From Gammaproteobacteria bacterium (GTDB lineage: Bacteria; Pseudomonadota; Gammaproteobacteria; JAABTG01): 64,000 nt of DNA. Below, one piece after another: positions 39,256 through 56,543 of this stretch. Below the pieces are notes generated by a model, which was not told the DNA's origin, made no database searches, and saw only the letters and a program-made list of their open reading frames with translations. The DNA lies in contig JAXHLS010000006.1 of NCBI GenBank assembly GCA_034522055.1, positions 893,643-957,642 on the forward strand. The letters run 5' to 3'. The position numbers and the translations under genes were made by a program. How positions within the stretch are numbered: the stretch's first letter is position 1; the number at the start of each line of letters is the position of its first letter.

Positions 39256-39744
39256 TCAGAGGTGGGTCTTGCGGACATGTTCCAGCAATCCTCGTGCCCC
39301 CGCCTCCACCAGATCCAGCACCTTCTCGAAGCCCTTGTCGCCGCCGAAGTACGGGTCAGGCACCTCGCCGGCGCGGCGTGAGTTGGCATACTCCAGGAAC
39401 AGCCCCACCTTGGCGCGCTGGCTCTCGGGACACATGTAGCGCAGATGGGAAAGGTTGTCCCTGTCCATGGCCAGGACGTAGTCGAATCTCTCGAAGTCCT
39501 CTGCGCTCACCTGACGGGCCCGCAGATCCGAGAACTCTACGCCGCGGCGGGCCGCCGCCGCCTGAGAACGGGCATCCGGGGGTTCCCCCACATGGTAGGC
39601 ATGGGTGCCCGCAGAATCGATACGGATGCGGTCGGTGAGCCCCGCCTCCTCCACGAGCCGGCGGAACACGCCGTGGGCGGTGGGCGAGCGGCAGATATTG
39701 CCCATGCACACGAAGAGTATTTTAACCGACTGATCTTCTTCCAT
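39256..39744 (-). CDS. Low-molecular-weight protein tyrosine phosphatase (5' end rebuilt by mobile element)
   Basis: 162 aa. The P-loop ILFVCMGNICRSPTA and the catalytic aspartate segment EVPDPYFGG are intact, so the enzyme should be active. Its first codons, MEEDQSVK, come from the inserted element: the attachment core at 39699-39720 covers codons for ILFVCMG, and the former chromosomal start (encoding MTDDSKVH) now lies 16.8 kb away at 56543. Before insertion the gene lay just downstream of frdCAB. Expression should now come from element DNA in the 113-bp space shared with the integrase gene. Confidence 0.93.
   Translation of the reverse strand: MEEDQSVKILFVCMGNICRSPTAHGVFRRLVEEAGLTDRIRIDSAGTHAYHVGEPPDARSQAAAARRGVEFSDLRARQVSAEDFERFDYVLAMDRDNLSHLRYMCPESQRAKVGLFLEYANSRRAGEVPDPYFGGDKGFEKVLDLVEAGARGLLEHVRKTHL
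39699..39720. other. Attachment site, left (attL core)
   Basis: 22 bp beginning TGCCCATGCACACGAAGAGT and ending in AT, identical to 56498-56519. On the minus strand it encodes ILFVCMG of the phosphatase P-loop. Confidence 0.92.
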
Positions 39745-39787: not shown

Positions 39788-39805
39788 TTGAATTCTGTTG
39801 AATTC
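39788..39805. promoter_or_regulatory. Two TTGAATTC copies 10 bp apart
   Basis: TTGAATTC occurs at 39788-39795 and 39798-39805, one helical turn apart, midway between the divergent phosphatase and integrase starts. It may be an operator for the integrase promoter. Confidence 0.35.
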
Positions 39806-39823
39806 CGTTACGTCTGGTGAAAG

Positions 39824-39844
39824 GTGCACACAGGAGTGCACACA
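39824..39844. other. Candidate integrase arm-binding sites, left
   Basis: GTGCACACA at 39824-39832 and 39836-39844, 12 bp apart, near the left core. Matching copies occur near the right core. Confidence 0.5.
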
Positions 39845-40456
39845 AAAGGTGGCAGATATGGGACTGACAGATGCAGCATGCAGGGCGAAGTGGGACGGGA
39901 AAGATCGCATGATGGGTGATGGTGGGGGCCTTTACCTGAATGTCCGCAGGAAGTCGAAAACATGGATTGTACGGAGGACGCGAGCAGGCGCCAAGCGAGT
40001 AATGACCCTTGGCCACCACCCCGACATGAGTCTGGCTGAGGCCCGCCGAGAAGCCGCCAAGCTGGACCCACGCAAGCATGGCAGCACACGCACGGTTTCA
40101 GACCTGGTGAAGGACTACCGGGGCATCATCGAGCGGGACAACAAACGGCCTCACCTGACAACCGGATATCTTGATCGGGGGATCCCCCTCCACCTGCGCG
40201 ACATGCGGATCGCCGATGTGGCCCGGGCCGACCTGGTGGCCGCAATCCGCGAGTATAAGATCCGAATCAATGGCCGTAGCGGAGAGCGGGCCCGGGACGC
40301 CTTCCGGGGGATCCTCCGCCAGATGTTCGGCCTGGCCGTTGAACAGGGTGACATCGATATAAACCCGGCGGCAGGCATCACGGCCCGGATCACCGGGTAC
40401 ACGCCGAAAGACCGGGCACGGGTGCTGAATGACGATGAGATCCGATTACTGTGGCG

Positions 40457-40461
40457 CCAGG
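40457..40461. repeat. Target-site duplication of the IS21 element, left
   Basis: CCAGG, repeated at 43823-43827. Confidence 0.88.
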
Positions 40462-40735
40462 TGTAGATGGCTGTAAAAACCCGCGCATATCTGGCGAAGG
40501 ATTGATTGGTAGGCCAATCAGTCGCTGAGCCGGCTGGCGGGCGGCCGCGAGCAACCGGTGACAAGAGTGCCGGAATCGGGTAGATGAAGAGGGGCCGTTG
40601 AGACAGGTGCGATACCGGGTCTAATTGACTTGGCGGTCGATCCCGGTATCGCACCCCGGGCCGTGCAGAGCACGAGCCCAAACACTATTTCTCGTTTTCC
40701 CCTGACAATCAAGTCCTCATCGGCCTGGATCGCCG

Positions 40736-41053
40736 ATGGAGAACTCTGCACGCCTGTACAACTGCGCCCGTTGTCATCGTCAGGTGATGATCTGCAGCGG
40801 CTGTGACCGCGGCAACATCTATTGCCCTGAGGGGTGTGCGCAGGCGGCACGAAGCGCGTCTCTGCGGGCCGCCGGCTGGCGCTACCAGCAGAGCCGCCAG
40901 GGCCGGCACAAGCATGCCGAGCGGCAACGCCGCTACCGGGCGAGAAGGCAGAAAGTGACGCATCAGGGTTCCCCGGCCCCGCCCCTCATGATCCACTACC
41001 CCCCGTTCCGGCGAGGCCGGCTGGCCGCCGCGGTGCGGATGGCGCGCCGATGA
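40736..41053 (+). CDS. Cysteine-rich accessory protein of the IS21 element
   Basis: 105 aa. The N-terminal half has a cysteine pattern C-x2-C, C-x2-C, C-x3-C (YNCARCHRQVMICSGCDRG) that suggests a zinc ribbon; the C-terminal half is basic (QRRYRARRQKVTHQG). Similar small frames precede istA in some IS21 relatives, to my knowledge, but their role is unknown. The stop overlaps the next small frame (ATGA at 41050-41053). Confidence 0.6.
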   Translation: MENSARLYNCARCHRQVMICSGCDRGNIYCPEGCAQAARSASLRAAGWRYQQSRQGRHKHAERQRRYRARRQKVTHQGSPAPPLMIHYPPFRRGRLAAAVRMARR

Positions 41054-41196
41054 TGGCGCCCATTCGCTGCCACTTCTGCGGCCGTGAGTGCGGACCTTTC
41101 CTGCGTACCGGCCCGCTTCATCGCGCCACCGCCGCTGCTGCGCTTGGAACAGTCACCCGACAGGGGCCACCAGGCGCCCGGGCTCAGCCCCCTTGA
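41050..41196 (+). CDS. Very small zinc-finger-like frame upstream of istA
   Basis: 48 aa, [20 protein letters not shown], with one C-x2-C and a further Cys. It is coupled to the preceding gene through ATGA. It may be genuine or a coincidence in GC-rich DNA. Confidence 0.4.
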
Positions 41197-41227
41197 GCCG
41201 GCCGGCCACGAGATGAGGAGAAACGCA

Positions 41228-42741
41228 TTGGCCATCAGCAAAGAACAAGAGGCGCAGATCCTGCGCTATCACTACGTCGAGAAGTGGCGGGTGGGCACCA
41301 TTGCCAGCCAGTTGGGCGTACACCACAACGTCGTCAATCGGGTGCTCTCCCAGGCCGGCATGCCGAAGGTCGAGCGGGCTGCGCAGCCGTCGATGATCGA
41401 TCCTTATCTGCCGTTCATCACCGACACCCTGGCCCAGTTCCCCACGCTCACCGCCAGCCGCCTCTACGGCATGGTGCGTGAACGGGGCTACCCCGGCGGC
41501 CCCGACCACTTCCGCCATCAGCTCGCCTGTTACCGGCCACGCCCCCGGCCCGAGGCCTTTCTGCGCCTGAAGACCCTGCCCGGCGACCAGGGACAGATCG
41601 ACTGGGGCCATTTCGGCAAGCTCACCATCGGCCGCGCAACCCATGCCCTGATGGCCTTTGTCATGGTGCTCAGCTACTCCCGGCGCATTTTTTTGCGCTT
41701 CTTCCTCGATGCCAAGATGGCCAACTTCCTGCGGGGCCATGAGGCGGCCTTCACCGCCTCGAACGGCCTGCCCAAGGTCCTGCTCTACGACAACCTGAAA
41801 AGCGCCGTGCTGGAGCGCCAGGGTGAGGCCATCCGCTTCCATCCCACCTTGCTCGAGTTCGCCGCCCACTACCGCTTTGAGCCCCGTCCGGTGGCGGTGG
41901 CCCGGGGCAACGAGAAGGGCGGGTGGAGCGCGCCATCCGCACGATACGCGATAATTTCTGGCCGGCCCGCCAATGGACCGACATCGATGATCTCAACGCC
42001 CAGGCCGAGGCCTGGTGCAACGGCTGGGCCATGGACCGGCCCTGCCCGGAGGACCGTGCCCTCTCGGTGCGCCAGGCCTTCGAGCAGGAGCCCCTGCTGG
42101 CGCTGCCCGATAACCCCTATCCCACCGACGAGCGGGTCGAGGTCCACATCGGCAAGACCCCTTACGCGCGCTTCGAGGGCAACGACTACAGCGTGCCCCA
42201 CACCCATGTGCGCCGCACCCTCACCGTCTCGGCCTCACCCACCGAGGTGCGGATCCTCGACGGCGGAGACGTCATCGCCCGCCACCCGCGCAGCTACGAC
42301 AAGGGCCGGCAGATCGAACAGCCGGAACACATCGAGGCACTGGTCCAGATCAAACGCCAGGCCCGGCATCATCGCGGCCAGGACCACCTGGCCCAGGCCG
42401 CACCGGCCAGCCGGCAGTTACTCATACAGGCCGCTGAGCGTGGCGACAACCTCGGCGCCATCACCGCCGCCCTGCTGCGCCTCCTCGATGCCTACGGCGC
42501 CCCCGAGCTGGAAGCGGCCATCCAGGAGAGCCTGGCCCACGGGGTCGCTCACCCCAACGGCGTGCGCATCGCCCTGCAGCGGAGGCGCGAGGCGAGAAAC
42601 CAGCCGCCCCGGGTGGGAGTGCGCATCGACCACGCGCGCGCCAGGGGGCTGGTGGTACGCACCCATGATCTGGGCGGCTACGACGCCTTGCAGTCCACCC
42701 CGCCCGAAGCCGAAGACGACGCCCAGGAGGAGCCCCAATGA
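41228..42741 (+). pseudogene. istA: IS21 transposase IstA, frameshifted
   Basis: DDE transposase in two frames. The first (from TTG 41228 with GAGGAG upstream, or an earlier ATG at 41214) encodes an HTH ([18 protein letters not shown]), first catalytic Asp ([10 protein letters not shown]), second Asp ([10 protein letters not shown]) and Glu (ARGNEKGG). At 41920 one base is missing, and the rest continues in the -1 frame ([19 protein letters not shown] to the stop at 42741). Restoring a C between 41919 and 41920 gives the normal [11 protein letters not shown]. There is no classical slippery sequence, so this is a mutation or a sequencing error. Confidence 0.9.
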
Positions 42742-43511
42742 TCCCTAACCCATCCCTGAAAGAACGGGCCACGGCCCTCAAGCTCCATGGCCTGCTGAGC
42801 CATTGGGAGGAGCACGCCGACGCTGGCTGGGTCGAGTCCCTGATCCAGTGGGAAGAGGAAGAACGTGCCGACCGCAGCCTCGAGCGGCGCATGAAAGGGG
42901 CGCGGCTGGGCCGCTTCAAACCCCTGGCCGACTTCGACTGGGGCTGGCCCAGCCGTTGCGACCGGGAACTGGTCAGTGAGCTGATGCGCCTCGACTTCCT
43001 TACCGAGGCGGTCAATATCATCCTGGTGGGACCCAACGGGGTCGGCAAATCCACCCTGGCCCGCAACATCGCCCATCAAGCGGTGCTGGCCGGCCACAGC
43101 GTCCTCTTTACCAGCGCCGGCCAGATGCTCAATGACTTGGCCGCCCAGGATGGCGACAGCGCCCTCAAGCGGCGCCTCGCCCGCTACGCCCGCCCTCAAC
43201 TGCTAGCGGTCGACGAGGTGGGGTATCTCGCCTACTCCAATCGCCATGCCGATCTGCTGTTCGAGATCGTCTCCCGCCGCTACGAGGAGAAATCCACCCT
43301 GGTCACCACCAACCGACCCTTCGCCGAATGGGGTGAAGTCTTTCCCAACGCCTCCTGCGTGGTCTCCCTCGTGGACCGGCTGGTACACCGCTCCGAGATC
43401 CTCACTATCGAAGGTGAATCCTACCGGCTCAAGGAGGCCAAGGAGCGACAGCAGCAACAGGCGCAGCGGCGCCAATCCGCAGCCAAATCCAACAAAGGAG
43501 CCCAACCATGA
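42738..43511 (+). CDS. istB: IS21 helper ATPase IstB
   Basis: 257 aa AAA+ protein that helps IstA choose target DNA. Walker [20 protein letters not shown], Walker [21 protein letters not shown], then [18 protein letters not shown]. The start overlaps the istA stop (ATGA). Full length. Confidence 0.95.
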
Positions 43512-43684
43512 CCCATCCCCCGATACCGGACGACTGGACACCAGAGCAGGCATTGGCGATCTATGACTTTATCGACGAACTCCGCGATGCCATCTGGAGC
43601 CGATACGATCGGCAGCTGGTCGAACTCATGCAACAAGACCGCATAACGACCTTTGAAGTCGACGACGATGACTTGATCTTCTGA
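43508..43684 (+). CDS. Small accessory frame after istB
   Basis: 58 aa acidic protein, [20 protein letters not shown], with its ATG overlapping the istB stop (ATGA). Similar short proteins are found next to transposase genes. The function is unknown. The coupling to istB makes translation likely. Confidence 0.6.
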   Translation: MTHPPIPDDWTPEQALAIYDFIDELRDAIWSRYDRQLVELMQQDRITTFEVDDDDLIF

Positions 43685-43822
43685 GCCGACTCTTAAGCCC
43701 ACCCCGGCGGCGTGACCTGGCTTGAGTCGAGGCGACCTATCCGCGCTGAGGCCGAGTCACGCCGCCTGAACCTGCGACTGCGACCTTCGCCATTTATGCG
43801 CGGATTTACTCAGCCGCTAACA

Positions 43823-43827
43823 CCAGG
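43823..43827. repeat. Target-site duplication of the IS21 element, right
   Basis: CCAGG, matching 40457-40461. Confidence 0.88.
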
Positions 43828-44277
43828 AGGGCGACAACGCGCGCCTGCTGCGATTCCTGCTGCTAACGGGTGCCCGTATCGGGGAGGCACAGAAGGCGGC
43901 GCCATGGGAAGCCAAGGGACGTGAATGGACCATTCCCGGCGATCTCTCGAAGAACGGCGATGCCCATTGGGTATATCTGACGGACACCGCTGCCGCGCAG
44001 GCCGCGCACCCTTTCCGTATGTCCCCCACGGCAACACAAGCCTGGTTACGCCGCTGGTGCGCCAAGCACGGCATTGATCCCGCCTTCACGCCGCACGACG
44101 CCAGAAGAACATTCAGCACCCGCCTGAACGATGCAGGCGTGGAGCCCTACGTGGTGGAGAAATGCCTTAACCACCGGATGAACGGGGTGATGGCCGTCTA
44201 CAACCGGGCCGCATACCGCGAGCAACGGATCGAGGCCTACCGCACCATGGAACGCCTGGTGATGGAGGTGGTGGGCA

Positions 44278-44655
44278 ATGGCTGATCTCATCTTCCTACT
44301 GGTGATGCGGGCCAAGGATGGCGATAAAAGCGCCGCCCGAGACTTGGCCACCATAGCCGCCGAGCGCCTACGCGATGGACGTCCCATGCCGGAACCCGTC
44401 CGGGACTGGCTGGCGTCTGCTCTGGAGTCTGCCGCCAGTGGCGAGGATGCGGGGCGGGCCCTGCTGCTGGCCGGACGGCGTGGGAGACGTCAACACGACT
44501 TCCGCTCGAAGTGGATAGACGTGGCCATGACCGTGGAGCATTTGGAGGGCGACATGGATCTCAATGACGCCATACAGGCCGCCGCCGACCACCATCACGT
44601 CGATGCCGGAACGGCGGCCAAGTACCACAAGCGATACCTGAAGCACAAGGACTGA
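44278..44655 (+). CDS. Hypothetical element protein
   Basis: 125 aa, overlapping the integrase stop by 8 bp. It is predicted soluble and mostly helical, with Ala-rich and Arg/His-rich segments (DAIQAAADHHHVDAGTAAKYH near the end, of which DAIQAAADHHHVD is the clearest). The late segment resembles a short HTH. No family recognised. Overlap with int suggests cotranscription. Confidence 0.6.
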   Translation: MADLIFLLVMRAKDGDKSAARDLATIAAERLRDGRPMPEPVRDWLASALESAASGEDAGRALLLAGRRGRRQHDFRSKWIDVAMTVEHLEGDMDLNDAIQAAADHHHVDAGTAAKYHKRYLKHKD

Positions 44656-45057: not shown

Positions 45058-46110
45058 ATGGGGTATCCCTTTAGCTCCACAGGATTCAATTCTCGGCTTT
45101 CTGGGACGTTTCTACGATTTTCCCGTAGGGCACCGGCTTCGTAATCACCGCCTGCTGGAGCAGGCGATAGAAGAGCAGCCCCCGAGATCGCGAAGTTCGG
45201 CGATTGAATCGAAATACGAATTCGTCCAGATAGTAGTCCAGCTGGCTCGGTTGGACAGCTCCATGGTGGGTGCCCATCATCCAGCGTTGCAGCAATGCGG
45301 CGACCCGGTGAACGCCCGGCATCGATTCATGAGCGGCCGTTTCGGACCCTATATGGACTGTGCGGCGGTGTTTATATCCGGCATCGTCCAGTTTCCGATA
45401 GGCGGCAGATCCATCACTGTGAATGGTCGCGCCCGAACGAACAGACTCCTGGATAAAGGGTAGCAGGTGCTCGTAGTCGCCTTGCGCGATTTGCTGAATC
45501 CGAATTCTTCCGAACCCTTTGGGTTGAAGCATCTCGACGGCGATGGCAACAAGTGCCTTTGTGGTGCGGCTCTTGCGGCCGAGCGCAGAAACTGGCGTTT
45601 TCCGGTCGGTCAGGGCAAGGTAGGTCTCATCGACTTCCACTTCTCCGTCAAGCAATTCCCTGCCGGGGCGCACCATGGCGCGTCGCAGTCTGTGCAGCAT
45701 CGTCCAGGCTGTTTCGTAGCTCCCCAGCCCAAGCACACGCTGCAATCCCAACGCGCTTACGCCGTGCTTCTGATTGGTGATATACCAAATAGCAGCGAAC
45801 CAGACCCGAAGCTCAGTGCGTGTCTTGTCGAAAATAGTGCCCGCCGTTACGCTGGTCTGGTGCCGGCATGCCGGACAAATCACTCTGCCACGACTGATTC
45901 GCTTGGCTTCGCTTGATGCGCCGCACCTCGGGCAGATCAGGCCATCGGGCCACCGCAGCTTTTCCAAGTAATCGCGACAAGCTTGCTCAGAATGGAACCA
46001 GTCAAGGAATTGAACCCAGGTTGTTGGATAGTCCGTACCCGCGATCGGTGGTAGCTTTGGCGCGTCCATGAGCCAATTCTGCCATCTGTGGAGCTAAAGG
46101 GATACCCCAT
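45058..46110 (-). mobile_element. IS1595-family insertion sequence
   Basis: 1053 bp with 25-bp perfect terminal inverted repeats (45058-45082 beginning ATGGGGTATCCCTTTAGCTC; complement at 46086-46110) and an 8-bp target duplication ATGGATAT at 45050-45057 and 46111-46118. It contains one intact transposase gene. It sits upstream of the primase-helicase gene and displaces whatever promoter that gene had. Confidence 0.93.
45086..46069 (-). CDS. IS1595-family transposase
   Basis: 327 aa, intact. N-terminal zinc ribbon (CPRCGASSEAKRISRGRVIC then PACRHQTSV), and the DDE-type core with VEVDETYLAL, IHSDGSAAYRKL and GTHHGAVQPSQLDYYLDEF. The H-H-G-x-V and FxFRFNRR segments are typical of the ISXO2/IS1595 group. 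Less GC-rich than its surroundings. Confidence 0.95.
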   Translation of the reverse strand: MDAPKLPPIAGTDYPTTWVQFLDWFHSEQACRDYLEKLRWPDGLICPRCGASSEAKRISRGRVICPACRHQTSVTAGTIFDKTRTELRVWFAAIWYITNQKHGVSALGLQRVLGLGSYETAWTMLHRLRRAMVRPGRELLDGEVEVDETYLALTDRKTPVSALGRKSRTTKALVAIAVEMLQPKGFGRIRIQQIAQGDYEHLLPFIQESVRSGATIHSDGSAAYRKLDDAGYKHRRTVHIGSETAAHESMPGVHRVAALLQRWMMGTHHGAVQPSQLDYYLDEFVFRFNRRTSRSRGLLFYRLLQQAVITKPVPYGKIVETSQKAEN

Positions 46111-46141
46111 ATGGATATCCAGTATCCCGAGCGGCGGCGTC

Positions 46142-48145
46142 ATGATGGCCGGGAATATCGAGGCCGCCCTGGGCCACCCCTTCGACGCCCGGGCCTACGC
46201 CGATCCGCCCGCCCTGGCCGCGGCCCTGGAACTGGCCGAGGCGGGTAAACCCGTGTTCCCGGCGAATCCTGCCGATAAGAGCCCCAGGATTCTCCGCGGC
46301 CTGCTGGCTGCCAGCACCGACCCCGATACCCTGCGGGCCTGGGGTGCGCGGTGGCAGGGTGCCGCCGTGGGCATGCGGACGGGTGCGGCCTCCGGGGTGT
46401 GGGTATTGGACGTGGACAAGAAGCGCGGCCTGGACGGCGACGAGGCTTTGTTCGCACTCCAAGCGGAGCACGGCCCATTGCCCGAGCCCTTTGAGGTGCT
46501 GACCCCGAGCGGTGGCCGCCACCTCTACTTCCAGCACCCAGGGCACACCGTGCGGACATGCTCAGGACTGCGCCCCGGGCTCGACGTGCGCGGTGACAAG
46601 GGTTATGTCCTCGTGCCGCCATCCCCTGGCTATGAGTATGAGGGAAGCAACCCGCCAGTCCCGCCGGTAGCGCCCGAGTGGCTGCTGGAGTTGGTACGAG
46701 AGGACGAGGCCCGGCCGACGGCGCCCGCCCTGGCCCCCAGCGACCCCATACCCGATGGCCGCCGCAATGACGCTCTGACGCGCCTGGCGGGCCGCTACCG
46801 AGCCGATGGCATGAGCCCGGCGGTGTTGGAGGCCCTGTTGCTCACCATCAACACCGAGCGATGCAGGCCGCCGCTACCGGATGCCGAGGTGAGGCAGATC
46901 GCCGCCAGCGTCGGACGGTACACGCTCGAGAGGGATGTGGTGGGAGAATCATCGGTGGATTTCTCGGGGCTGCTGATGAGCGCCATGGGGGTGCCCGTCA
47001 CCACCTGGCCCGCGCCGCTCGACATGCGCGAGCTGGCCCTCGTGGAGCCGACGCCGCCGGAGTTCTTCGTCGCCGACTGGATGCCGAAGGGTTACGCGAC
47101 CCTGCTGGCCGGGCATGGTGGCGTGGGAAAGTCGGGAATCGCGTTGCACCTGGCCTGCTGCCTGGCACTCGGGCGCGACTGGTGGGGCCTGCCCACTGAG
47201 CCGGCCCGGGTGCTGTATTTGTCATGCGAGGACCGGGAGGCGGTTCTTCATTGGCGCCTGGCCCGCATCGCCTACCACCTCGGCGTAACCTTGGACGCCC
47301 TACACGGGCGCCTCCTGGCCCTGGATTTGGTAGGCCACGACGTGACCCTCTGGCGCGAGCGAGGTGGCCCTACGCCCGCCCTCGGATCGTTACGCGACAA
47401 CATGCGCGAGGCGGACGTGCTGATCGTGGATGGCATATCGGACACGTACTCCGGCAACGAGAACGATCGCGCCAGCGTCAAGAGCTACGTGAACGCCCTG
47501 CTCTCTACTGTGCGCGACGATGGCGCCGTCTTGCTGCTGGGGCACGTCAACCGGACCACGGCCGCGGGCGGGGGCACGTCCGAGGGCTACAGCGGCTCCA
47601 CCGGCTGGAACAACGCAGTCCGGGCCCGCTGGTACCTCTACCCCGAGACACAAGCCGTGGACGGCGAGCACGAAGCCTCCGGCGACCTTCTACTCGATCA
47701 CCAGAAGTCAAACCTCGGCACCACGGGCGCGCAGGTGAGATTCAGGTGGGACGACGACGCCCACCTCTTCCTCGGCCAGGCCGTGACGCCCGCCGGGGCC
47801 GCGGACAAGGCCGCCCGGGACCGGCGCGAACTCGACGGAATCGAAGAGGCGATCCGGGCAGTTATCGAGCGTGGCGACTACGTGCCGGCGACGCGTCAGG
47901 GGCCGGATACCGGCTTCAAAAAACTGCTGGACGAGCCCGCCATGCCCTCCTCTTTACGGGCCGATAATCGGGCGACGCGGGCCCGTTTTTGGCGCCACGT
48001 CGAACTCAGCGAGGTGCGATTGCACGGCACCACTGTCAGCCTGCCCGAGCATGGCGTGGTAGTGCCCCTGGTGGAGGGGGTCTATCGGGTGGTGTCCACC
48101 ACGAACTCGGACGGGGTGATGCTGGTGGGATTCCTGCGGGAGTGA
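46142..48145 (+). CDS. Primase-polymerase / RecA-like helicase fusion (replication protein)
   Basis: 667 aa. Residues about 20-190 form a primase-polymerase domain (VWVLDVDKKRGLDG, TPSGGRHLYFQHP, GLDVRGDKGYVLVPPS); a PriCT-1-type segment follows (RRNDALTRLAGRYRADGMS); residues about 300-530 are a RepA/AAA_25 ATPase with Walker A LLAGHGGVGKSGIALHLA at about 323 and Walker B VLIVDGISDTYSGNEND. It probably replicates the element after excision. Two adjacent ATGs (46142, 46145) are likely starts; an upstream ATG at 46088 lies inside the IS1595 end and is an artefact. Confidence 0.87.
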   Translation: MMAGNIEAALGHPFDARAYADPPALAAALELAEAGKPVFPANPADKSPRILRGLLAASTDPDTLRAWGARWQGAAVGMRTGAASGVWVLDVDKKRGLDGDEALFALQAEHGPLPEPFEVLTPSGGRHLYFQHPGHTVRTCSGLRPGLDVRGDKGYVLVPPSPGYEYEGSNPPVPPVAPEWLLELVREDEARPTAPALAPSDPIPDGRRNDALTRLAGRYRADGMSPAVLEALLLTINTERCRPPLPDAEVRQIAASVGRYTLERDVVGESSVDFSGLLMSAMGVPVTTWPAPLDMRELALVEPTPPEFFVADWMPKGYATLLAGHGGVGKSGIALHLACCLALGRDWWGLPTEPARVLYLSCEDREAVLHWRLARIAYHLGVTLDALHGRLLALDLVGHDVTLWRERGGPTPALGSLRDNMREADVLIVDGISDTYSGNENDRASVKSYVNALLSTVRDDGAVLLLGHVNRTTAAGGGTSEGYSGSTGWNNAVRARWYLYPETQAVDGEHEASGDLLLDHQKSNLGTTGAQVRFRWDDDAHLFLGQAVTPAGAADKAARDRRELDGIEEAIRAVIERGDYVPATRQGPDTGFKKLLDEPAMPSSLRADNRATRARFWRHVELSEVRLHGTTVSLPEHGVVVPLVEGVYRVVSTTNSDGVMLVGFLRE

Positions 48146-51956: not shown

Positions 51957-52955
51957 TCATGATAGGTCCTTTAGGCCTACATTCTTGGCGATCTTGACGG
52001 CAACACGCTTGAAATCCTTGTACGCATCGCTCACTGCGTAAGTATGTGCGCCGAGGGCGCCATCAGCGGGCTTCAGGAAGAACATTGGTTTGCGAGCCTC
52101 CTGAGCGAGAGGCATAAGGCTGCGATAGTCCTTGAGCTTGGCGATACAGTTGGGGTCGGTATCGATTTTGATCTGTTGGTCAGGTTCCTGGTTAAGTACA
52201 GCCCTCATGTAGGTGGATGGGATGCGAGCAATCCAGCGCTCGAAAGCCTTAACGGGTCGGTCAAGCCGAGTGGAGTGTCGCAGCACCATGTAGCCAATGG
52301 GCTCGATATTGCCCCCTGGTAGGCTAAGGTCTGCTGGCGGATTTTCACCCAGTCGCTTAGTCCACCCTTCACGCCACCTACGTACGGCGGGACCTAGATT
52401 TTGCAGACCTTGAAGTGAAAACAGATCCGGCCCCAATGGGATAGCCACAAAGTCCGATGCAATCAGCGAAGCACGGTTGATCGCACCAAGGTTTGGGCCC
52501 AAATCAATCATGATGGCATCAGCGCCGTGTTTTTCCCCAGCTTTCTGTGTCACGCGCCAAAACGCTGACATTATACGGAATGCACGAGCGTCTCCCCCAA
52601 GACACTTCGGCCACACCTCGGACAAATCATCTTCAAAGGTAGATAGCGCCATGTCTCCAAGAATTAGCCCCAATCGATCAGAAATAATTTCAACGTGGGG
52701 ATCAAGGATATCTCCCGTGCCATCTTTGAGTGGCTTGACAGCACCAAAGATCGTTTGCGGATCTCCGTGATTCAACATGACGGCTTCGAGCCGGTCCTCA
52801 TCAAGAAAAGCTGCCGTAAGATTACTTTGGGGATCGAGGTCGGCTGCGATCACGCGTAGGCCATTGTCGGCCAACATCCACGACAAGTGATAGACCATGG
52901 ATGTCTTTCCAACGCCGCCCTTGTTGTTGAAAAACGCGATGACAGGGATGCTCAT
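51957..52955 (-). CDS. ParA-family ATPase
   Basis: 332 aa deviant-Walker ATPase. The signature KGGVGKTS lies at residues 12-19 (FFNNKGGVGKTSMVYHLSWM), Walker A' DLDPQSNLTAAFL at about 40, and DAIMIDLGPNLGAINRASL near 140. There is no ParB gene nearby; instead it overlaps the upstream ATPase gene by 4 bp (ATGA, 52952-52955). That coupling points to a two-protein module rather than plain partition. GC content is below that of the chromosome. Confidence 0.9.
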   Translation of the reverse strand: MSIPVIAFFNNKGGVGKTSMVYHLSWMLADNGLRVIAADLDPQSNLTAAFLDEDRLEAVMLNHGDPQTIFGAVKPLKDGTGDILDPHVEIISDRLGLILGDMALSTFEDDLSEVWPKCLGGDARAFRIMSAFWRVTQKAGEKHGADAIMIDLGPNLGAINRASLIASDFVAIPLGPDLFSLQGLQNLGPAVRRWREGWTKRLGENPPADLSLPGGNIEPIGYMVLRHSTRLDRPVKAFERWIARIPSTYMRAVLNQEPDQQIKIDTDPNCIAKLKDYRSLMPLAQEARKPMFFLKPADGALGAHTYAVSDAYKDFKRVAVKIAKNVGLKDLS

Positions 52956-54145
52956 GGACGCCTCCTTAAAATGACGGCGATGTGGTTATCTTCGACTTGG
53001 AACTCGGGCAACGGACTGCCATTCTTCTCCATCTCTCTCCGAGCCAACGCAATGCCATAGCCGAAGCGTTGCACATAACCCAGTTCTTTCATCACGCCGG
53101 CCAAGTTCGGGTTGCGGTAGTCATTTGCACCGGGCTGACCAAAGTCCTCTTTAGTGACTTGCCCGAAGGGGCCGCCTGGGTTCTGAATCTCAACGCGATC
53201 ATTGAACCAGTAAACGCGGACTGGCGCATTGGTGTTTTCGTAGGTCCTGTGGAGTACCGCATTGCGGACAAGCTGCTGAAGCGCCACTACAGGATAATCA
53301 GGTGTTCGTACTTCCGTGACGCCACTTGTGAAGTCAGCAGATGACTGGATGTTGTTTTTAATCAGGTCCTCGACTTCCTCGAGAAGATCGGGGAGCGGCC
53401 CACGGACCTCACGTTGATTCCTCACGGGGTCGCCGAGATGTTCTCCGTCGATGCGAACGAACTGTATGTAGGCGCATGCAATCCAGTCCGCCGGAGACTT
53501 GCCCACAGTCAGCAATCCGAGCATCGTCGAACAGAGGGGCGGACCGGGATGAGCAAATTTTGCCGCGGCGAGTTGATCTTCTAGGGACCGCTGGTTCTGC
53601 TCAATGACCTCAGTCGAAACGGAGTTCGGAAGATAGGTACGCCTGAAAAGAAAATCGTCAAGTTGATCCAGTCCAGCATCTTGAAAGGGCCGAATATCTG
53701 CTGGGAGATCACGATACCTCCTCTTTTCGTTGAGTCGGCGTTCATCATCCGCGTTTGCAATTCCCTTACGGGGGCCCGAACGAATCCACACCGATCCCTT
53801 GAATCGTACTGGAGGAGACGACGAGGGGTGCACGATTACAACCGCCATGTCATAACCTTTGAGATTTAGTTTCTGGACGTCCAGAGACGGAAACGGAACG
53901 ATGTTTCCGTCGCCCCGCATCGCAGCAAGGTTCAGTAGCAATTGGTCAGTGATCTCTAGCCCTGTCGGTTGTCCATTGTCGCCAACGCCAACGAATAACA
54001 CCCCAGGTTGTTGATGATCAGGAAGATCATTGGCAAAGGCGCATACCGCTTGGCGAAACTTGTCGCCATTGTTTGAGGATTGCGTTCGCTCCGCGCGGTC
54101 AGACTCGATCTCGTCCAGCAGAGCTTCAAGCTGTTCTTTTGTCAT
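52952..54145 (-). CDS. AlbA_2 (Schlafen-like) DNA-binding / HATPase-type protein
   Basis: 397 aa. The N-terminal half is an AlbA_2 domain (FRQAVCAFANDLPDHQQPGV, LFVGVGDNGQPTGLEI); the C-terminal half resembles HATPase_c_4 of the RecG-related putative transcriptional regulators (ALQQLVRNAVLHRTYENTNA, VEIQNPGGPFGQV, RNPNLAGVMKELGYVQRFG). It is the first gene of the pair with ParA. Similar proteins act as regulators or in defence contexts, but the function of this pair is unknown to me. Codon use and lower GC suggest separate acquisition. Confidence 0.85.
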   Translation of the reverse strand: MTKEQLEALLDEIESDRAERTQSSNNGDKFRQAVCAFANDLPDHQQPGVLFVGVGDNGQPTGLEITDQLLLNLAAMRGDGNIVPFPSLDVQKLNLKGYDMAVVIVHPSSSPPVRFKGSVWIRSGPRKGIANADDERRLNEKRRYRDLPADIRPFQDAGLDQLDDFLFRRTYLPNSVSTEVIEQNQRSLEDQLAAAKFAHPGPPLCSTMLGLLTVGKSPADWIACAYIQFVRIDGEHLGDPVRNQREVRGPLPDLLEEVEDLIKNNIQSSADFTSGVTEVRTPDYPVVALQQLVRNAVLHRTYENTNAPVRVYWFNDRVEIQNPGGPFGQVTKEDFGQPGANDYRNPNLAGVMKELGYVQRFGYGIALARREMEKNGSPLPEFQVEDNHIAVILRRRP

Positions 54146-54323: not shown

Positions 54324-55103
54324 CTAGGCCGCCTCCCGTAACACATCGGCGAACTCGTCCGGCCTAGACCAGCGCGACACAGTGGACAGGCTCTCCACTA
54401 GGCTGAAGTCTTCGTCAGACCAGATGTCGGCAGTGTCGTCAAAGAGTGAGACGAAGTGTAAGGCCTCCGGGCCAGCCGCCAGGTGATTCAAATCGAACCA
54501 TGCTGCTGTGACGTGCTCGACCACAGCCCGGGCCCTTGAGCGATTTGCGGTGCTCAGCACGTAGACCAGGGAGCTGCGGGCCGGCACTCGCACGTGGAAG
54601 TCAACCGTCCAGCCTCTACCGGAGTTACCGGCCAGCTTTTCCCGCGGCTGGAAGTGGAACTGGTGCTCTGATAGGTAATCTGCGACCTCATCGACAATGG
54701 ACTCCACTGCCCGGGTTCTGAAGGTAAACCAGATGTCCGAAACCCGCAGCGACGCTTGGGCAACACGGATGACCACCGCCGCCAAGGAGTCCCCGGGGCG
54801 GCAGCGGGCGAGTAGCATGCCACGGTAGAATTCCACGCCATGGGTCAAACAGGCGTCTTCGATAAGCTTAAGCTGCTTAGGCGAACGGCGCAGGCTGACA
54901 GATTGCATGCGCAGCCATCGTGTGGTTTCTCCCAGATCAGTGACCGTTATGAGGTCATCCTCGATCTTGCAGAAGAGGTCGATGTTGTCGCCATCTGGGA
55001 ATAGGTAAGGCGTACGAATGCGCTGATAGCCCCCCTGCTCCGAACAAGTGAATAGCTCACTGAGATTGGCCTTAAATTCCTGGCATATCATGTGCACGCT
55101 CAT
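54324..55103 (-). CDS. DUF1828 domain protein
   Basis: 259 aa soluble protein. The N-terminal about 100 residues fit DUF1828 (RIRTPYLFPDGDNIDLFCKI, ITVTDLGETTRWL); the C-terminal part resembles DUF1829 (VDEVADYLSEHQFHFQPREK). It overlaps the upstream gene by 4 bp (55100-55103). The 178 bp to the next gene (54146-54323) hold nothing clear. Function unknown; such proteins often sit in mobile elements in two-gene units. Confidence 0.82.
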   Translation of the reverse strand: MSVHMICQEFKANLSELFTCSEQGGYQRIRTPYLFPDGDNIDLFCKIEDDLITVTDLGETTRWLRMQSVSLRRSPKQLKLIEDACLTHGVEFYRGMLLARCRPGDSLAAVVIRVAQASLRVSDIWFTFRTRAVESIVDEVADYLSEHQFHFQPREKLAGNSGRGWTVDFHVRVPARSSLVYVLSTANRSRARAVVEHVTAAWFDLNHLAAGPEALHFVSLFDDTADIWSDEDFSLVESLSTVSRWSRPDEFADVLREAA

Positions 55104-55561
55104 AAGAGCAGTTCCTCTTGAACCGCTGGCGGTTGGGCAAGCCGGCCGCCGACATGTTTAATTTTAGCCTCTGCGCAGAACTGCTCCCAGACAGCTACCG
55201 GCTCGGTCGCGAGCGTCGTGATGTCCTCGGGCACATATGCTTCCTTATCCCGGAATTGCTCCGTCCAGCTGTGCTTGTGTTTTTCCCCTACCTGCGTGCA
55301 CTCGGGATTATGATGGTCCTTCCCCATATCCAGCCCGTAAATGCGTCCATCTGTCTTTAGAATCAGCATATAAGAGAGCGTGCCCGCATAACGATTGTAG
55401 CTGCCCCGCACAAATAGCGGCCATCCGACGTCCGAATGTATCTCCACCCGGAACTCAACCGCGGGGGAGTGATCCTCGTCCTCCGTCCACTCGATACCGC
55501 CGTTTATCTCCTTGGAATTATCCTCCAGGATTGAGGCGAATTCTGCATTCGTCAGTGCCAT
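55100..55561 (-). CDS. DUF6978-like protein
   Basis: 153 aa from ATG 55561 with AGGAGAG upstream. The segment DGRIYGLDMGKDHHNPECTQ followed by HKHSWTEQF recalls the DUF6978 family. A frame open to 56122 lacks a supported start. It forms a coupled pair with the DUF1828 gene (ATGA overlap). I consider the family call likely but not certain, and no activity can be assigned. Confidence 0.7.
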   Translation of the reverse strand: MALTNAEFASILEDNSKEINGGIEWTEDEDHSPAVEFRVEIHSDVGWPLFVRGSYNRYAGTLSYMLILKTDGRIYGLDMGKDHHNPECTQVGEKHKHSWTEQFRDKEAYVPEDITTLATEPVAVWEQFCAEAKIKHVGGRLAQPPAVQEELLL

Positions 55562-55880
55562 TATCTCTCCTGCTATCGTTTTGGGCACCTTGGCGCGTAC
55601 CCACACCTCTTCAGCTAGCTCCGCGGTGATATCGGTTCGATAAGACCGACAGATTCCCCCTGTAGTGAAGGACGAACCGCTTCTGAGGACGAAACACCGA
55701 CAGTCTCTACGACCGCTGGAGCGTTCCGCCGGACCTTGAGCCCGCTCCCGGAAGGGGGTCAACGGACACCGGCAACGCCGAGCAGCTATGGAGCTACGGC
55801 GCTCCCTGGGCCGCCAGGGCGACGACCCACGGGATAGCGGCGATGGTGCCGCGGGAGGGCATGCTGGCGTCCGTGCTGAC
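55562..55880. other. 319-bp spacer
   Basis: No gene recognised between the DUF6978-like gene and the DUF4124 gene. The spacer should contain the promoter of the DUF6978/DUF1828 pair; no strong hexamers were seen. Confidence 0.5.
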
Positions 55881-56455: not shown

Positions 56456-56543
56456 GTATGGGGTTATCTATTTGTTTTCATTGGAGTTTACAAATGATGC
56501 CCATGCACACGAAGAGTATGTGCACCTTGGAATCGTCAGTCAT
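56434..56543 (-). pseudogene. Stranded original 5' end of the tyrosine phosphatase gene
   Basis: From ATG 56543 the minus strand reads MTDDSKVH then ILFVCMG inside the attachment core, after which element DNA follows and a stop comes six codons later (IICKLQ then TGA). The residues match the phosphatase P-loop in frame, so this is the pre-insertion gene start. It lies 130 bp downstream of frdB. Confidence 0.88.
56498..56519. other. Attachment site, right (attR core)
   Basis: 22-bp perfect copy of 39699-39720. Confidence 0.92.

Follow-up and report, generated by a model that had tools for sequence, protein, structure and literature searches.

Two overlapping genes on an integrative element of a gammaproteobacterium, one encoding a Schlafen-type protein with a GHKL ATP-binding domain and the other a ParA-type ATPase, constitute a real and widespread two-gene module, a new form of the predicted ParA-effector kind. 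The overlapping pair is conserved, its two proteins diverge jointly, the signature residues of both ATPase and effector are intact, and there is no ParB. Sister ParAs overlap genes for other enzymes, whose catalytic residues are conserved, and in some genomes the Schlafen-ParA pair is interleaved with Hma or BREX-related genes. We favor, with a probability of roughly 0.6, the reading that the pair is a functional module in which a ParA-type switch gates a toxic RNase in abortive infection; the interaction, activity, trigger, and protection that this reading entails are inferred. All positions given without a contig or locus label refer to the window, by which we mean the whole 64,000-nucleotide stretch of contig JAXHLS010000006.1 that was analyzed.

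The Schlafen gene (52952..54145, minus strand) codes for a 397-aa protein with an SLFN_AlbA_2 domain at residues 14-127 (PF04326; E = 1.3e-14, 55.2 bits against a gathering cut-off of 25.3) and a HATPase_c_4 domain of GHKL type at residues 307-393 (PF13749; E = 5.3e-20, 71.7 bits against 26), assignments that are supported by an AlphaFold model, fold matches, and conserved residues. We infer that the product is an RNase effector with an ATP-binding module, its RNase activity being a prediction. The ParA gene (51957..52955, minus strand) codes for a 332-aa ATPase of the effector-linked family, with an AAA_31 match above the Pfam cut-off (E = 1.4e-25) and similar support from an AlphaFold model, a fold match to 3pg5, and conserved residues. 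An ATGA read directly from the sequence (52955-52952, minus strand) is common to the Schlafen stop and the ParA start, a stop/start overlap of the type associated with translational coupling. The two genes have a GC content of 0.53-0.54, whereas the surrounding window is mostly 0.62-0.70. Neither protein has a strong match to a known-defense model in PADLOC-DB 2.0.0: the Schlafen protein gives only weak partial matches, the best being to the Aga_SIR2 model (6.2e-15) and to pAgo (2.8e-14), and the window ParA a match of merely 2.4e-7.

The pair is cargo of a 16.8-kb integrative element bounded by an exact 22-bp direct repeat, the two copies of which (39699..39720 and 56498..56519) are putative att sites. 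A tyrosine integrase gene lies just inside the left end (39798-44285, plus strand) and is interrupted by an istA/istB insertion of IS21 type, with its N-terminal, arm-binding half at 39798..40466 (plus strand; Arm-DNA-bind_3, 4.8e-15), its C-terminal half beyond the insertion at 44019..44285 (plus strand; Phage_integrase, 1.7e-11), and a Pfam IstB_IS21 match at 42738-43508 between them; because the integrase is split, the element may have lost the ability to move on its own. Pfam matches also identify an IS1595 transposase (45086-46069) and a prim-pol gene (46088-48145) within the element. The left repeat is near the start of a gene at 39256-39744 (minus strand), which we take from its sequence to be low-molecular-weight phosphatase-like, and which would be an unusual integration site. 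The preliminary description, made from the sequence alone, had proposed an AlbA_2/HATPase gene overlapping a ParA gene by ATGA in the cargo position of a lower-GC integrative element, and both proposals held, the latter supported by the repeats, the integrase halves inside them, and the GC content; the ParA gene lies just outside the interval 52952-54145 that had been quoted for the pair.

Upstream of the Schlafen gene, on the same strand and separated by a 178-bp gap, is a gene for a DUF1828 protein (54324..55103, minus strand; Pfam 2e-12), which is PADLOC candidate PDC-M24B (5.4e-106). It adjoins a gene for a DUF6978 protein (55103..55690, minus strand; Pfam 7.3e-12), PADLOC candidate PDC-M24A (2.1e-69), and together they (54324-55690, minus strand) represent a second candidate defense module in the same element. 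We considered these genes as part of the Schlafen-ParA module and rejected this, since no recurrent immediate neighbor of that kind is present in the listed clusters beside relatives of the pair, not all of which are annotated; they are therefore treated as separate cargo.

Predicted structures and conserved residues are in accord with the domain assignments. The Schlafen protein model (pLDDT 88.2, pTM 0.65) has its best PDB match in 3lmm (Z 23.2 over 357 aligned residues), and because the rmsd is 14.3 we regard this as a match of the separate domains and not of a single body. For the N-terminal part, matches include 2kyy, a RecG-related domain (Z 10.2), the SAMD9 tRNase 9o0d (Z 9.4), and SLFN11 (7fex, Z 8.5), and the C-terminal part matches SpoIIAB (Z 9.7) and histidine kinases, with Z scores of about 8.4-9.7. 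N-terminal carboxylates are well conserved (E14 in 45/45, E19 in 47/47, and D56 in 42/47 sequences), and their spacing resembles that of the SLFN13 active-site triad, E205/E210/D248 (PMC5862951); this likeness is argued from position and fold, without a residue-level superposition. The GHKL residues N295, G324, G362, and G364 are also conserved. The AlbA_2 domain, initially described as Schlafen-type DNA-binding, is thus better read as a Schlafen RNase fold. The ParA model (pLDDT 92.3, pTM 0.91) best matches 3pg5 (Z 28.6), with Soj at a Z of about 28, and residues K12, K17, D39, D41, and D151 are conserved in 33/33 sequences. With the signature and P-loop lysines in place and a Soj-like fold, the window ParA meets the criteria for the ParA/MinD (deviant Walker A) superfamily. 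The two best structural matches, 3lmm (DIP2311) and 3pg5 (DIP2308), are both structural-genomics orphans from Corynebacterium diphtheriae with locus tags three apart, from which alone we infer that they derive from one neighborhood.

The pairing is widespread. When 369 genomes of the class were searched with the Schlafen protein (E up to 1e-30), matches were found in 11, and ParA overlaps the Schlafen gene in all eight full-length relatives besides the window's own; the remaining matches are fragments or carry stops. The reverse test in the same 369 genomes showed that nine of ten ParAs with at least 52% identity sit in a Schlafen pair, the tenth (L116) being alone. A scan of 84,980 species genomes recovered at least 564 relatives among 590 candidate stretches, and in 75 of the best 80, which were kept, a ParA homologue is directly downstream; a stricter script counted 73 intact pairs, with those at L100 and L101 broken. 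The 75 paired loci span 14 named phyla, together with two loci that have no phylum call, and include 73 bacterial and 2 archaeal examples, with the caveat that many are on contigs of metagenome-assembled genomes. Among 98 unique (non-redundant) Schlafen-linked ParAs, 84 show the same spacing of exactly -4 as the window pair.

The two proteins diverge jointly, their distance matrices correlating with a Mantel r of 0.744 (32 pairs); none of 5,000 permutations was as high, the maximum being 0.356. ParA is missing from five of the 80 Schlafen loci (L031, L037, L062, L073, and L081), and in a quick tree of 51 rows these five, and a sixth from a viral contig, nest in a few places inside the paired tree. 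This nesting suggests that the pair is ancestral and that ParA has now and then been lost, and the effector can evidently persist without it. We rejected a third obligatory gene, as clustering of neighboring genes showed no frequent third family other than uvrA in cyanobacteria, Hma genes, and a mixed cluster whose position varies. More distant Schlafen-GHKL relatives (<30% identical) are present on plasmids in 116 records, two of which were opened. In one, a Pseudomonas plasmid (L294, 2353-6158), the Schlafen-GHKL gene overlaps that of a TrlF AAA-like ATPase, and possibly the Schlafen side swaps its ATPase partner too; in the second, no ParA is annotated next to the Schlafen-GHKL gene.

The window ParA has no ParB of its own, because the only ParB_N match over cut-off in the genome (C2:2333684) directly follows a different, canonical ParA (C2:2332597) on another contig. 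No ParB gene is next to the window ParA in a genome search with ParB_N, with parS sites outside of that search. The window ParA resembles canonical ParA/Soj partition ATPases in fold and in its deviant Walker A motif, but is longer (332 aa, compared with about 250-300 aa), has an effector partner in place of ParB, and falls below the curated partition models NF041546 and TIGR03453 (55.8 bits against 180, and 59.7 against 348.45, respectively). On the Vibrio ponticus plasmid pVPon1, a ParA-SIR2 pair of the same family lies 2.6 kb from an ordinary and separate ParA-ParB. The preliminary description's statements that this is a ParA without ParB and not a normal partition cassette were upheld by these observations. 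It had also recognized that it would fail were the pairing unique to this locus or were a ParB partner to be found elsewhere; the co-occurrence search refutes uniqueness, and no such partner was found elsewhere in the genome with ParB_N.

The ParA itself belongs to a family whose members are coupled to several kinds of enzyme. The ParA search of the class found 21 places in 19 of the 369 genomes; besides the ten at or above 52% identity, eleven are 29-41% identical or are fragments, and most of these are in tight operons with other genes, including those for RelA_SpoT (1.4e-14), HEPN_RiboL-PSP (best 2e-14), and SIR2_2 (best 1e-27) proteins by Pfam, which gave no name to other partners. A profile (A2) built from 15 members gives the window ParA, itself one of its rows, 441 bits, against 25.6-97.9 for 18 comparison ParA-type proteins. 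The ParA profile (E up to 1e-40) found 40 places in 35 of 398 phylum genomes; among the 30 examined, the partner is Schlafen at 18 (the window's own included), SIR2 at 4, HEPN at 3, RelA/SpoT at 2, and cyclase-like at 1, and two have no intact partner, one of these (L159) keeping a Schlafen fragment. The best 80 of 481 loci on virus-like contigs include 18 RelA/SpoT, 17 SIR2, 10 HEPN, 3 cyclase-like, and 2 Schlafen partners, and the ParA at the other 30 of these prophage-like loci has no recognized partner. Ten plasmid matches picked from 134 (at least 80% coverage) comprise 5 with SIR2, 1 with HEPN, and 4 alone. The window's genome has a second family ParA (C4:23487) with a cyclase-like partner, again with a -4 overlap; the cyclase-like label rests only on two invariant aspartates and the motif shape, and this partner has no Pfam, NCBIfam, or PADLOC match.

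Partner types follow the ParA tree. A quick-method tree was built from 137 ParAs, including 19 comparison ParA-type proteins and 37 Schlafen-linked ParAs, other Schlafen-linked ones being left out. On it the partner labels require 10 changes, whereas shuffled labels need 85.0 on average and none of 200 shuffles was as low; the HEPN and cyclase-like branches each account for only one change. Separation from canonical ParAs is only weakly supported (68). Catalytic residues of the alternative partners are retained, including R and H in 16/16 HEPN proteins, G22, G24, S26, N126, D128, and H173 in 25/25 SIR2 proteins, and R61 and K63 in 19/19 RelA/SpoT proteins (numbered as alignment columns).

Several family members depart from these arrangements. 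The partner at L129 is a 304-aa protein to which no family could be assigned, and at L122 (887-1489) and L123 (2493-3074) an extra conserved protein of about 200 aa, with no family match, is encoded upstream of, and overlapping, a RelA/SpoT-linked ParA. Solo family ParAs are present in the filamentous phage Pf1, the P22-like phage ST160, and an E. coli chromosomal region with phage-like repressor genes, and the filamentous phage WX-TY carries a ParA-HEPN pair (L291, L292, L293, and L296 together); the E. coli and ST160 solo proteins are family members by profile (236-253 bits). A ParA-SIR2 pair from a Salmonella plasmid has no DNA match in 5,426 E. coli genomes.

The neighborhoods of some relatives bear on function. 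The gene order is HmaA-Schlafen-ParA-HmaB at two loci (L039 and L082), the pair lies between HmaB and HmaC at a third (L043), and HmaA directly precedes it at a fourth (L089); a ParA-less Schlafen copy (L062) is between BrxC and a gene for a 1148-aa protein. Phage resistance conferred by genes nested within Hma loci has been demonstrated (PMC12111858). Hma genes are within the flanks of 9 of the 80 loci (1.09 Mb) and absent from all 15 randomly drawn 20-kb stretches (0.3 Mb), and we dropped a claim of enrichment since 15 control stretches are too few. Eight cyanobacterial pairs follow a UvrA gene on the same strand at 28-146 bp (L034, L035, L036, L040, L044, L048, L049, and L052). No Hma, BrxC, or UvrA match is present within the window.

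These observations make an accessory defense module, as originally suggested, the best-supported reading, with both the Hma/BREX-related interleaving and the SIR2, HEPN, and RelA/SpoT partners of sister ParAs in its favor, although defense activity itself is inferred. In the mechanism we propose, the Schlafen-fold RNase with its GHKL ATP-binding domain would be the effector and the ParA-type ATPase its regulatory switch. ATP-bound ParA would dimerize, probably while bound to nucleoid DNA in the manner of Soj, and would hold or license the effector. A phage or other invading element may then reset the ParA cycle, through loss of nucleoid DNA, an altered nucleotide state, or the action of a phage protein, and the freed effector would cut tRNA or rRNA, such that growth stops before the invader multiplies. 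The physical interaction, the direction of control (whether ParA restrains or activates), the RNase activity, the trigger, and the anti-phage effect are all inferences. Against this reading, there is no experimental support, ParA is absent from five of the 80 loci, solo ParAs exist, and the uvrA-adjacent cyanobacterial pairs hint at repair rather than defense.

Other explanations are possible, but we consider them less likely. The pair could be a toxin-antitoxin or addiction system, with ParA as antitoxin and the Schlafen RNase as toxin, serving island retention rather than phage defense. The overlapping two-gene order and the mobile location are consistent with this, and Anantharaman et al. 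(2013; PMC3710099) postulated the same for HEPN and ParA/Soj. However, the Schlafen gene is kept after ParA loss at those five loci, ParAs occur alone, and the pair is inside Hma defense operons in several genomes, so that we regard this explanation as unlikely. We give considerably less weight to a DNA-repair or stress accessory, in which the pair would work with UvrA or SOS functions and sense DNA damage. The position of uvrA directly upstream on the same strand at the eight cyanobacterial loci argues for it, as does the requirement of the Gifsy-1 ParA-like region for SOS RNA repair (PMC9879122; family membership unestablished), but the uvrA link is seen in cyanobacteria only, where it perhaps reflects one inherited insertion site, and the window has no UvrA.

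A role as transcriptional or excision regulator of the island is also very unlikely. Members of COG2865 often carry the annotation of transcriptional regulator, and that annotation habit and the location in an integrative element favor such a role; however, the pair is conserved in many contexts without a shared element, and the fold and residues are of RNase type. The element might instead be partitioned or positioned by a non-canonical system in which the AlbA_2 protein stands in for ParB, a possibility supported by the Soj-like fold and Walker residues of ParA. We reject this as the main reading and think it very improbable, with NCBI partition models matched far under cut-off, a separate ParA-ParB on pVPon1 near its ParA-SIR2 pair, and sister ParAs coupled to SIR2, HEPN, and RelA enzymes.

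A switch-gated RNase in abortive infection thus remains our preferred reading, and a bolder form of it can be entertained, in which one ParA family, spread over many phyla, plasmids, and prophages, serves a large, modular immune family as a switch that does not depend on the effector, with each branch coupled to its own enzyme: Schlafen RNase, SIR2 NADase, HEPN RNase, RelA/SpoT alarmone synthetase, or cyclase-like. This could as readily prove wrong as right. The usual interpretation of ParB-less ParA genes on islands is that they are left over from plasmids. Under the bolder reading, many 'orphan ParA' genes on mobile elements would be defense switches and not partition relics. If the ParA family is a common switch for different toxic enzymes, there is a unifying and testable function for ParB-less island ParAs, a ParA/MinD-type P-loop switch joins the sensor NTPases already known in bacterial immunity, and nucleoid-binding dynamics may link to the sensing of infection.

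Neither the Schlafen-ParA pair nor a single ParA family serving several effectors turned up in the open-access literature searched (bioRxiv was outside of the search), and the systems most closely related to the pair each capture a part of it. ParA-like ATPases without ParB, in prophages and with measured phage effects, are known as GiPD474 and RemAIN of Gifsy-1 prophages (PMC12724215 and PMC9879122). GiPD474, reported as a single gene, lowers T4 plating by about 5 logs (PMC12724215), and a Gifsy-1 region that includes a ParA-like gene is required for RNA repair to be turned on in the SOS response (PMC9879122); membership of any of these in the family is unestablished. We do not count GiPD474 as a proven member, as the E. 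coli and ST160 ParAs read GGVSKT and GiPD474 is reported as GGVGKT. The dyad of HEPN and ParA/Soj (MAE_18760), predicted to be a toxin-antitoxin system (Anantharaman et al. 2013; PMC3710099), is likewise a two-gene operon of ParA-like ATPase and RNase-type effector, and the ParA-HEPN pairs recovered here are one branch of the same ParA family. Unlike that dyad, the window partner is a Schlafen-GHKL protein encoded upstream of ParA, and its ParA is in a separate clade; the sections of that paper bearing on the ParA dyad describe the HEPN partner only. Schlafen RNases with a minimal histidine kinase and wHTH have been described as accessories of BREX and BREX-related (DUF499/Hma) systems, the fusions to a minimal histidine kinase in these systems being reported from at least 1017 taxa (NAR 2026, PMC12839542), in a paper whose main text does not have the whole word 'ParA'. 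These accessories have the same pairing of Schlafen and GHKL domains, and the relatives found here include copies in Hma/BREX operons; what differs is that nearly all copies here have a coupled ParA and that the window copy is outside of any Hma/BREX operon. A shared ParA family also ties the published ParA-HEPN prediction to the Schlafen accessories known from BREX-related systems.
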